A stretch of DNA of 64,000 nucleotides. Origin: Rhodopseudomonas palustris (GTDB taxonomy: Bacteria; Pseudomonadota; Alphaproteobacteria; Rhizobiales; Xanthobacteraceae). The position numbers were made by a program, and so were the translations under genes. The stretch spans positions 992,001 through 1,056,000 of the forward strand of contig NZ_CP058907.1 in assembly GCF_013415845.1 (NCBI RefSeq). Direction: 5' to 3'. The notes beneath the pieces are model-generated. The model did not search any database. It was not told where the DNA came from and saw nothing but the letters and a program-made list of their open reading frames with translations. Below, one piece after another: positions 20,591 through 25,316 of the stretch (position 1 is its first letter; every line of letters begins with the position of its first letter).

Positions 20591-20803
20591 CTGTTCGTGC
20601 ACCGGGGCGCGACGTGTTGTCGCTCTGCGCGTGCTGCAAAGCACGACGATGCGCGCGCTCGTTGTGGTGCCTCCTTCACGGCCAATTCACAACACAGTGA
20701 GCAGTAGTGTTTTCAAGCGGTTCTGGGCCCGAAAATCCCGCTTAATAAACAGCTAACTACATGGAACTAATCGCTTCTTGGTTCGTGAACCGGGCCGGCA
20801 AAA
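20591..20803. other. Non-coding interval
   Basis: No gene or terminator with a T-run is visible after the methyltransferase stop. The last 60 bases before the FixK box are AT-richer than the surroundings. Confidence 0.4.
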
Positions 20804-20817
20804 TTGATCCGGCGCAA
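20804..20817 (+). promoter_or_regulatory. FixK/FNR-type box upstream of two small membrane genes
   Basis: TTGATCCGGCGCAA fits the rhizobial FixK2 consensus TTG(A/C)-N6-(T/G)CAA. Its centre is about 62 bases before the GTG start at 20873. Placing the box at -41.5 puts transcription start near 20851, with TAGTTT at 20839-20844 as a plausible -10 and the ribosome-binding site at 20861-20868. It differs from the ubi box at 25303-25316 at only one position. Confidence 0.65.
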
Positions 20818-20872
20818 TGCGGGCAGCGGTACTTTCCCTAGTTTTGCCTTCGACGAAAGCAGGAGGTGTGAC

Positions 20873-21067
20873 GTGTTTCTGGATTCTGTCGGATCGCTCG
20901 TGTTGTTCCTGACGTGCGCCGTCGGCCCTGCGTTGATTGCGTATCTCGTCGTCGACGATCTGTGGCGTAAGGCAACTCAGCGTGCGCAACCGCAGCCCCC
21001 GGCTCCGGTGGTGACCGCCAAGCAGGCACCCGAGCGGCGTTTCGGCTGGTTCGCGTGGGCGAACTAA
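20873..21067 (+). CDS. Small single-helix membrane protein of unknown function (64 aa, GTG start)
   Basis: The start GTG at 20873 is fixed by a near-perfect AGGAGGTG (20861-20868). The product begins MFLDSVGSLVLFLTCAVGPA and has one membrane helix (about residues 8-27), then a basic, Pro/Gln-rich cytoplasmic tail ending RRFGWFAWAN. I recognise no family. The FixK box upstream suggests expression at low oxygen. Probable roles of such proteins are accessory subunits of respiratory or photosynthetic membrane complexes, but that is inference. A second microprotein gene follows 84 bases later. Confidence 0.7.
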   Translation: MFLDSVGSLVLFLTCAVGPALIAYLVVDDLWRKATQRAQPQPPAPVVTAKQAPERRFGWFAWAN

Positions 21068-21151
21068 GTTCGGACTGAGCTTCGAGTTCAAGACGGGCGC
21101 ACCCGCCGTCGAGCTTCCAGGGTGCTCATCGCAAACAGTGAGGAAAGAGCC

Positions 21152-21346
21152 TTGACCATTGTTGCATTGATCGCAGCGATCTACGGGCTGGTCGGCCTGA
21201 TCGGTCTGGTGGCCTTGATCATCGGTGGCCGTGAGGTCGTGGCGCAGAACGCGCACTGGAAGCGCTTCGATGAAGCCCATTATTGGGACGAAGCGGCGGA
21301 AGACTGGCGGCCGCACGAACACGCCTCGCGGCCCGCGACGGCCTGA
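21152..21346 (+). CDS. Second small membrane protein of unknown function (64 aa, probable TTG start)
   Basis: GAGGAAAG at 21140-21147 places translation start at TTG 21152, giving MTIVALIAAIYGLVGLIGLV as the N-terminus. An in-frame GTG at 21122 would add ten residues but lacks a ribosome-binding site. One hydrophobic helix (about residues 2-24) is followed by an acidic, Trp- and His-rich tail (WKRFDEAHYWDEAAEDWRPH). The tail is acidic where that of the upstream microprotein is basic, so the two may pair. A terminator at 21396-21438 closes the unit. No family recognised. Confidence 0.65.
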   Translation: MTIVALIAAIYGLVGLIGLVALIIGGREVVAQNAHWKRFDEAHYWDEAAEDWRPHEHASRPATA

Positions 21347-21395
21347 TCGGACGTCGAACCGCTCGCGCCGATCGCGGCGCCAACTTGAAAATTCG

Positions 21396-21438
21396 AAGGC
21401 CGGCACCTGCGCCCTGCAGCTGCCGGCCTTTTCTTGTT
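21396..21438 (+). terminator. Terminator of the microprotein operon
   Basis: AAGGCCGGCA (21396-21405) pairs perfectly with TGCCGGCCTT (21421-21430) and is followed by TTCTTGTT. It lies between convergent genes and could act in both directions. Confidence 0.7.
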
Positions 21439-21443
21439 CGCTG

Positions 21444-21653
21444 CTACTTGTCCTCGACGTATTCGAGAATGTCGCCGGGCTGACACTCGAGCACCGTGCA
21501 GATCCGTGACAGCGTCTCGAACCGGATGCCCTTCACCTTGCCGGATTTCAGCAACGAGACGTTCTGCTCGGTGATGCCGATCTGCTCGGCGAGCTCCTTC
21601 GAGCGCATCTTGCGCCGCGCCAGCATCACGTCGAGGTTGACTACGATCGCCAT
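21444..21653 (-). CDS. XRE/Cro-type HTH regulator (69 aa)
   Basis: The whole protein is one helix-turn-helix domain of the small YozG-like type: MAIVVNLDVMLARRKMRSKE, then LAEQIGITEQNVSLLKSGKVKGIRFETLSRIC and a short tail. It lies three bases after the DUF2975 gene. HTH and DUF2975 genes occur together in many bacteria, where the regulator controls the membrane protein. The palindrome at 22264-22282 before the first gene is the likely operator, giving autoregulation. Confidence 0.88.
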   Translation of the reverse strand: MAIVVNLDVMLARRKMRSKELAEQIGITEQNVSLLKSGKVKGIRFETLSRICTVLECQPGDILEYVEDK

Positions 21654-21656
21654 CGC

Positions 21657-22232
21657 CTACACGAAGCTCGCGTTCTCGTCGGCGAGCCGCGCCGCTTCGC
21701 GCATCACCGCCGCGACCGCCACCAGCACGCCGCCGACGATCACCGAGACATAGTCGTTGCTGGAGAACGTCAGCACCAGCAGACGTTGACCGGGGGGATT
21801 GCTCAGCGACAGTGCGAGCGCCAGGGCGGTCGCGGTGACGGGACCAAGCAGGCCCTGCGCCAGCACGGCGATGCCGAAGCGCTGCAGGTAGGTGGCTGCT
21901 GTGGTGGTGAAGACCTGGCCGCGCGCGAACTCTGCGAACAGCGCGCGCACATTGACCAGCCCCCACAGCATCACGGCCACCGGCACGGTGATGATGACAG
22001 CCGCCAGCGCCTGATTACCGGCGTCGAGCGGCAGCCGAGTGCCGATCTCGCCGAGCTTGGTCAGCAGCAGATTGCGGGTCCAGCTCGGGACCAGGAAGAC
22101 GGCGCCGATCAGTCCCACGATCAGCACGATCCCGATCGTGCTCATCCATTCCATCGCGCGCGACAGCCGCACCAGCTTGGTGGCCGCCGGACCGGTCAGT
22201 CCGATCGAGGTGCCGGATAGTCGTGCTTGCAT
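21657..22232 (-). CDS. DUF2975 membrane protein (191 aa)
   Basis: Four hydrophobic helices are visible (about residues 32-52, 75-95, 115-140, 155-178), with the family-like segments RNLLLTKLGEIGTRLPLDAG and ALFAEFARGQVFTTTAATYL. DUF2975 has no established biochemical function. It is the first gene of a two-gene leftward unit with the HTH regulator. The ATG at 22232 lies 31 bases from the nearest half of the palindrome. Confidence 0.8.
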   Translation of the reverse strand: MQARLSGTSIGLTGPAATKLVRLSRAMEWMSTIGIVLIVGLIGAVFLVPSWTRNLLLTKLGEIGTRLPLDAGNQALAAVIITVPVAVMLWGLVNVRALFAEFARGQVFTTTAATYLQRFGIAVLAQGLLGPVTATALALALSLSNPPGQRLLVLTFSSNDYVSVIVGGVLVAVAAVMREAARLADENASFV

Positions 22233-25302: not shown

Positions 25303-25316
25303 TTGATCAGGCGCAA
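25303..25316. promoter_or_regulatory. FixK/FNR-type box between ubiD and ubiT
   Basis: TTGATCAGGCGCAA matches TTG(A/C)-N6-(T/G)CAA. It sits near the middle of the 115-base divergent gap, about 58 bases from both start codons, so it could activate ubiT and ubiD alike. Oxygen-sensing control fits O2-independent ubiquinone synthesis. Confidence 0.7.

Follow-up and report, generated by a model that had tools for sequence, protein, structure and literature searches.

What do two very small genes, placed between a FixK-type box and a terminator-like hairpin in Rhodopseudomonas palustris, contribute to the cell? We addressed this question in a window of 64,000 nucleotides (the whole stretch of DNA analyzed; NZ_CP058907.1, positions 992,001 to 1,056,000), whose source genome (G000) consists of a single 5,322,414-base contig. 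The genes, g1 (20873-21067) and g2 (21152-21346), have 64 codons each and are located on the plus strand, as are all operon features given below in window coordinates. Together they make up an operon of the FixK type, conserved and under selection, whose products represent two new families of microproteins. Behind the ribosome-binding site AGGAGGTG (20861-20868), g1 starts with GTG and encodes a predicted single-helix membrane protein of 64 aa with a basic, Pro-rich tail and the C-terminal end GWFAWAN. The second gene, g2, starts with TTG and encodes another predicted single-helix membrane protein of 64 aa, with an acidic, Trp/His-rich tail; its probable ribosome-binding site is GTGAGGA (21138-21144), GTGAGG being found in 13/13 aligned intergenic regions (13 of 16 were aligned, and those of G007, G020 and G088 were left out). 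The first-pass annotation of this DNA had proposed the same box, g1 ribosome-binding site, GTG gene and TTG gene, and the sequence and its open reading frames agree. It had also closed the unit with a terminator, and a hairpin followed by T-rich DNA is indeed predicted at 21395-21431 (-27.3 kcal/mol, z -5.1), with 0/200 shuffles folding as well; a simple terminator pattern scanner called 0 sites. An intercistronic hairpin between g1 and g2 was considered and dropped (0/13 predicted pairs changed on both sides, fold z 0.14, G+C-rich bases conserved), and the only Rfam match was far under its gathering score.

One membrane helix per protein, with one basic and one acidic tail, had been expected as well, and in each protein a single segment is strongly hydrophobic (the best 19-residue Kyte-Doolittle mean is 2.47 in g1 and 2.78 in g2), with a net charge behind it of +3 in g1 and -3 in g2. 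AlphaFold2 models g1 as a helix at residues 2-37 with a tail of low confidence, and g2 as a helix at 2-42 plus a hairpin at 43-46/51-54 (mean pLDDT 79, pTM 0.36; pLDDT about 86 over residues 41-50). There is no histidine in g1, and those of g2 (H35, 43, 55 and 57) are all behind the hydrophobic segment 6-24.

The FixK-type box TTGATCCGGCGCAA (20804-20817) follows the pattern TTGATCC[GTC][GA]CGCAA in 16/16 genomes carrying the pair, and its centre is 61-67 nt upstream of the g1 start in all of them. Over these genomes the majority-base count averages 15.6/16 within the box, versus 9.5 in the 40 bases before it and 11.0 in the 20 bases after it. Within the window alone such a box is at chance level: TTGATN6CAA occurs 3 times versus 0.95 expected, with 11/100 shuffles reaching 3, and the relaxed pattern TTGMN6KCAA occurs 3 times versus 2.79 expected. 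One of the TTGATN6CAA sites, the third, is TTGATCTACCTCAA at 287-300. Genome-wide, TTGATN6CAA has 166 matches versus 30 for the reversed pattern, palindromic sites being counted on both strands. The box is considered to be beyond chance because of this genome-wide excess, its conservation in 16/16 carriers and the constant spacing to a TAnnTT element, the comparative evidence weighing most. The latter element, a -10 hexamer TAGTTT (20839-20844) at the spacing of class II CRP/FNR promoters, is found as TAnnTT 21-23 nt 3' of the box in 16/16 carriers (chance about 0.03 per genome). A sigma-70 scanner called no promoter, a miss that may be expected since the g1 promoter reads as a class II activator promoter. 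FixK/FNR boxes have the wider form TTG(A/C)-N6-(T/G)CAA, and such a box near -41.5 with a -10 element downstream is present in 16/16 carriers; the consensus quoted in PMC3050613 is TTGA(N6)TCAA. Footprinting across the 16 genomes gives good support to a conserved two-gene unit of membrane microproteins under the FixK-type control that had been suggested for this locus. We infer that the regulator is FixK, although AadR or another FNR-family protein could bind instead; judged by the annotations given there, g1 and g2 do not appear in Tables 1 and 2 of PMC3050613. A second conserved promoter element, TTAATAAACAGCTAACTA at 20742-20759 (TTAACGATCAnCTAACTA in many relatives), contains [ACT]TAACTA in 16/16 carriers, 58-60 nt before the box centre but 49 nt in G007. 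This pattern, which was derived from these same sequences, has 1 match in the window versus 0.01 expected, and an exact scan of viral contigs for the element matched 3 stretches.

The earlier reading had named a lack of conservation in sister strains as a finding that would speak against it; both frames are in fact conserved, and the pair is carried by 14/16 Rhodopseudomonas and 2 sister-genus genomes. When 61 relatives were searched, 15 of them, namely 14/16 Rhodopseudomonas and one genome of the sister genus, matched g2 strongly (E 1.7e-25 or better) and 3 more only weakly; g1 has the identical 15 strong carriers (E 1.2e-16 or better) and 14 other weak ones. The g1 profile matched 18/296 genomes of the family, 16 of them strongly (14 Rhodopseudomonas and both sister-genus genomes, G020 and G088). 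The g2 profile matched 47/391 genomes: the same 16, 30 of Bradyrhizobium and one weak. In Rhodopseudomonas and the sister genus g1 and g2 always occur together (16/16 carriers), and the TTG start of g2 is unchanged in 16/16. Ten named g2 relatives with 66-97 % identity are all from Rhodopseudomonas, including R. pentothenatexigens JA575, R. palustris XCP, R. infernalis HC1 and R. pseudopalustris DSM 123. The two Rhodopseudomonas genomes that lack the pair, G009 and G014, are 4.1 Mb in size and, judged by this size, probably of the reduced-genome type that PMC12016538 describes for strains DSM127 and JSC-3b. No match to the pair was found in the plasmid collection, and short matches at L061, L062 and G495 fall inside frames of 423-661 residues and were taken as chance.

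Both frames are under purifying selection, with a median dN/dS (simple Nei-Gojobori count) of 0.31 for g1 (119/120 genome pairs usable) and 0.23 for g2 (116/120). Codons 1 (the TTG start), 3, 6, 7 and 10 of g2 (21152-21181) are invariant over 16 genomes; this invariance, TTG included, hints at a translational signal. Antisense frames are also partly open across both genes, and the plus frames are taken as coding despite this because of their ribosome-binding sites, hydrophobic segments and residue conservation. Only one of five database matches of g1 has a source name, which is 'hypothetical protein'.

Beyond the earlier reading, comparative searches show that the g1 helix and the g2 tail are separate modules that recur elsewhere. 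Residues 36-54 of g2 (21257-21313) form the tail W-K-x-F-D-x-x-H-x-W-D-x-x-A-x-x-W-x-P, with the beta-hairpin predicted at 43-46/51-54, and ten of its residues are invariant across alignments of 18 and 24 sequences that include Bradyrhizobium. Profile and single-sequence searches, in both directions, place g2 in this tail family. Searching proteins with profile A3 yielded 321 matches (E up to 1), and all organism-named ones among the best 120 are from Rhodopseudomonas or Bradyrhizobium. The tail is present in 30 Bradyrhizobium genomes. Fourteen loci were read (L074-L087; the protein at L080 is P0045 of Bradyrhizobium sp. CSA112), and 14/14 are small frames in which the tail is joined to another N-terminus. 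A CRP-like box, [TA]GTGA-N6-T[TC]A[CT]A, is centred 67-71 nt before the ATG in 14/14 of these loci; in five Bradyrhizobium stretches totalling 90,505 bases the same pattern has 9 matches, both strands and the tail genes' own sites included. With a CRP-like box at class II distance in 14/14 loci, the tail family therefore seems to have been rewired between CRP/FNR regulators. Only part of Bradyrhizobium carries the tail: among the genomes listed from 397 of the order, 4 of this genus have it and 10 do not. The g1 profile found no g1 in Bradyrhizobium among the 296 family genomes. In four 18-kb Bradyrhizobium stretches, g2 was the only one of 13 neighbourhood proteins with a match, and the neighbours of the tail genes vary. 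Database proteins P0105 and P0113 have the tail attached to another hydrophobic segment. The tail protein of G391, which we take to be B. diazoefficiens USDA 110, lacks a strong membrane helix (its best mean is 0.56; gene at 7,730,834-7,731,040 of a 9,105,828-base contig), so the tail need not have a membrane partner. An amphipathic-helix reading of the g2 tail was rejected (moment 0.043 at 100 degrees, with 97 % of shuffles reaching at least that value). A Foldseek search gave 15 matches at E up to 10 and none at 0.001.

Residues 2-36 of g1 (20876-20980) are a membrane module that also begins a larger protein, itself preceded by FixK-type boxes. In an hhalign comparison the two aligned over 35 columns with a probability of 95.7 % and E 1e-8, the second profile comprising three sequences only; a control using the g2 profile gave 0.6 %. 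The g1 profile also matches this N-terminus directly, with E 4.8e-7 in G020 and E 8e-4 in G012. In G000 this protein (L146, C1:1,323,338-1,323,970, minus strand) has 211 residues from MEYLSALG and a divergently adjoining CBS-domain gene. The larger protein is 211-222 residues long, has another hydrophobic segment behind the module and ends in a Cys-rich domain, and the FixK-type boxes before it are TTGACATACCTCAA and TTGATTTTCGACAA in G000, TTGATTTGCCTCAA in G012 and TTGATTTACCTCAA in G020. Three further G000 copies of the Cys-rich domain were observed (C1:4273911, 103840 and 2704060). In strain TIE-1, Rpal_1412 is a hypothetical protein with a signal peptide and transmembrane domains, next to Rpal_1413, annotated as IMP dehydrogenase; its mRNA rises 9.3- to 34.7-fold under anaerobic versus aerobic conditions and falls 3.3- to 31.7-fold in the fixK mutant (PMC3050613). 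The larger G000 protein is probably Rpal_1412, judged by gene arrangement rather than by sequence, because its CBS-domain neighbour fits the Rpal_1412/1413 arrangement.

That no described system matches the pair, as had been stated in the first-pass annotation, agrees with searches of families, PDB and the open-licence literature. No model of Pfam, NCBIfam, PHROGs or PADLOC reached its cut-off, and PHROGs and PADLOC had none at E 0.1. Several matches under curated cut-offs were rejected, including DUF4235 (6/18 g1 members, best E 0.019) and DUF6084 (E 0.0064) and B12D (0.1), each in one member of the g2 set; two NCBIfam models for window proteins (E 0.085-0.11) were under cut-off as well. Searches with 18 + 18 members gave no light-harvesting alpha/beta or oxidase-subunit Pfam match at E up to 10. 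No PDB chain matched g1 by single sequence or profile, or g2 by profile; a PsaR chain for g2 (E 0.92) was rejected. The set searched included the R. palustris RC-LH1 structures 6z5r and 6z5s, which, according to PMC7806223, are complexes with and without protein W. Among the open-licence papers listed, none has a title or abstract start that concerns the pair, and a search with the guessed locus tags RPA0942-0946 returned no paper on it; the tag searched is not in the main text of PMC6794480.

Our leading explanation, held tentatively and at somewhat under an even chance, is that g1 and g2 serve some low-oxygen assembly in the inner membrane as an adaptor or accessory unit. According to this model, a FixK-family activator bound at about -41.5 would, as the promoter suggests, switch on the bicistronic operon at low oxygen and yield two single-helix inner-membrane microproteins. 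Their tails, one basic and one acidic, would probably both face the cytoplasm, because of the positive-inside rule. The g1 helix would be a membrane docking module, used too by the larger FixK-boxed protein, and the g2 tail a Trp-rich beta-hairpin, carried in Bradyrhizobium by other N-termini, that binds a partner on the cytoplasmic side of this membrane. In favor of this explanation, the pair and its promoter are jointly kept in 16/16 genomes with both genes under purifying selection, the g1 module is found on a protein with FixK-type boxes in G000, G012 and G020 that is probably the FixK-dependent Rpal_1412, the tail is conserved across genera on different N-termini, and neither protein has enzyme-like residues or an enzyme-like family. 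Against it are the USDA 110-type tail without a strong helix, the survival of G009 and G014 without the pair and the presence of the tail in only part of Bradyrhizobium. It also counts against it that the putative association of g1 with g2 has just two signs, co-conservation and opposite charge, and that the hairpin is a prediction from 24 sequences with no significant Foldseek match. The helices, too, are predictions.

The local neighbourhood offers a different role, as a membrane anchor or regulator of the adjoining anaerobic ubiquinone pathway (UbiT/U/V). The ubiquinone operon has the box TTGATCAGGCGCAA at 25303-25316, which differs from the g1 box by one base, and the genes behind it score as UbiT, UbiU and UbiV by NCBIfam; the earlier remark that both boxes are of one kind thus holds. 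These genes adjoin the pair in 10/10 named relatives and in G088. Nevertheless, G009 and G014 retain ubiX, ubiD, ubiT, ubiU and ubiV with no pair nearby (G014 also keeps a box) and have a CMAS homologue elsewhere (72 % identity), so the pair can be separated from ubiTUV as well as from CMAS, and in the four Bradyrhizobium stretches tested no ubi genes lie near the tail genes. A ubiquinone role is therefore very unlikely. Next to g2, an XRE-type regulator and a DUF2975 membrane protein are encoded on the minus strand (21444-22232); both are missing beside the pair in 2/10 named loci and are located elsewhere in the genome of G014. A functional link to the neighbour genes was rejected on these grounds, CMAS and ubi being kept without the pair and XRE/DUF2975 not being constant. 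It is extremely unlikely that g1 and g2 are just chance open frames in G+C-rich DNA; the partly open antisense strand and the four of five unnamed database matches of g1 would fit this, whereas the dN/dS values, the conserved starts and ribosome-binding sites and the cross-genus tail contradict it.

A role confined to the photosynthetic apparatus (RC-LH1, LH2), as a subunit or an assembly factor, would fit the fact that all 16 carriers belong to Rhodopseudomonas or its sister genus, where reaction-centre genes are present in the three genomes checked (G000, G020 and G088); g1, taken by itself, has been seen in phototrophic genera only. Pigmentation of R. palustris is affected by FixK (PMC3050613), and a substoichiometric or loosely bound factor could escape solved structures. 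However, PF00124 is absent in 30/30 Bradyrhizobium tail carriers, yet present in the pair-less G009 and G014 as it is in G000, G020 and G088, so the tail has no fixed link with photosynthesis, which can itself do without the pair. Neither protein has a match in the solved R. palustris cores with and without protein W, or the bacteriochlorophyll-binding histidine that light-harvesting alpha/beta polypeptides have in their membrane helix. Given the 30 tail carriers without reaction-centre genes, the two phototrophs without the pair and the solved cores, a dedicated photosynthetic subunit is very improbable, and this branch of the first-pass annotation is disfavored. The main specific rival to the adaptor explanation, itself unlikely but to be taken seriously, is that a terminal oxidase used at low oxygen (cbb3 or bd) has g1 and g2 as its accessory subunits or its assembly factors, like CcoQ, CcoM, CcoS and CydX, small helices that stabilize the enzyme or aid cofactor insertion. 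The FixK-type promoter would suit such a role, as would the occurrence of the tail in non-phototrophs and the control of ccoN by FixK in R. palustris, where it is 6.7- to 129-fold down in the fixK mutant (PMC3050613). On the other hand, neither an oxidase-subunit Pfam match at E up to 10 nor a PDB chain match was obtained, and no oxidase genes adjoin the pair in the part of the window examined or in the ten named relatives. Finally, each microprotein might act on its own target as a free-standing regulator of a membrane transporter, protease or sensor. Bradyrhizobium tail genes do stand alone, with varied neighbours and a CRP-like rather than a FixK-type box (14/14), and the larger protein has the g1 module with no g2; since g1 and g2 stay together in 16/16 carriers of Rhodopseudomonas and the sister genus, we regard such independent action as quite unlikely.

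An extension of the adaptor explanation, more speculative and in our opinion rather unlikely as a whole, is that of a modular adaptor kit in this bacterial family. Here, the g1 helix, an exchangeable part, would address proteins to a shared FixK-dependent membrane assembly, and the Trp-rich hairpin, exchangeable as well, would be a docking signal on different anchors, with regulators of FixK type in Rhodopseudomonas and of CRP type in Bradyrhizobium, for a function common to phototrophs and non-phototrophs.

Annotation misses genes of this kind, as the naming of the g1 matches illustrates. The pair adds two uncharacterized families for which the promoter predicts timing, selection shows importance, and modules are shared with a probably FixK-dependent protein and with Bradyrhizobium proteins. 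Both Rhodopseudomonas and Bradyrhizobium hosts are genetically manipulable; therefore, a new low-oxygen membrane component would be directly testable.

Compared with known systems, the oxidase small subunits CydX, CcoQ, CcoM and CcoS have a single helix, a short tail and low-oxygen control, and g1 and g2 resemble them in this way of working only, differing in having no Pfam or PDB match and no adjacent oxidase genes. Protein W (PufW), PufX and light-harvesting alpha/beta are likewise small membrane proteins of purple bacteria, whereas g1 and g2 have no sequence match to the 6z5r/6z5s chains and no helix histidine, and protein W has three helices (PMC7806223). The larger protein, probably Rpal_1412, shares FixK-type promoter boxes and the N-terminal membrane module with g1; it has in addition the second hydrophobic segment and the Cys-rich domain, while g1 consists of the module and a short basic tail. 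The Bradyrhizobium tail proteins (about 68 aa) are similar to g2 in tail, size and a CRP/FNR-type box 67-71 nt upstream (14/14), and they differ in their other N-terminus, the lack of any g1 match in Bradyrhizobium among the 296 family genomes and their CRP-like TGTGA-N6-TTACA box, in contrast to the FixK-type box of the g2 operon.
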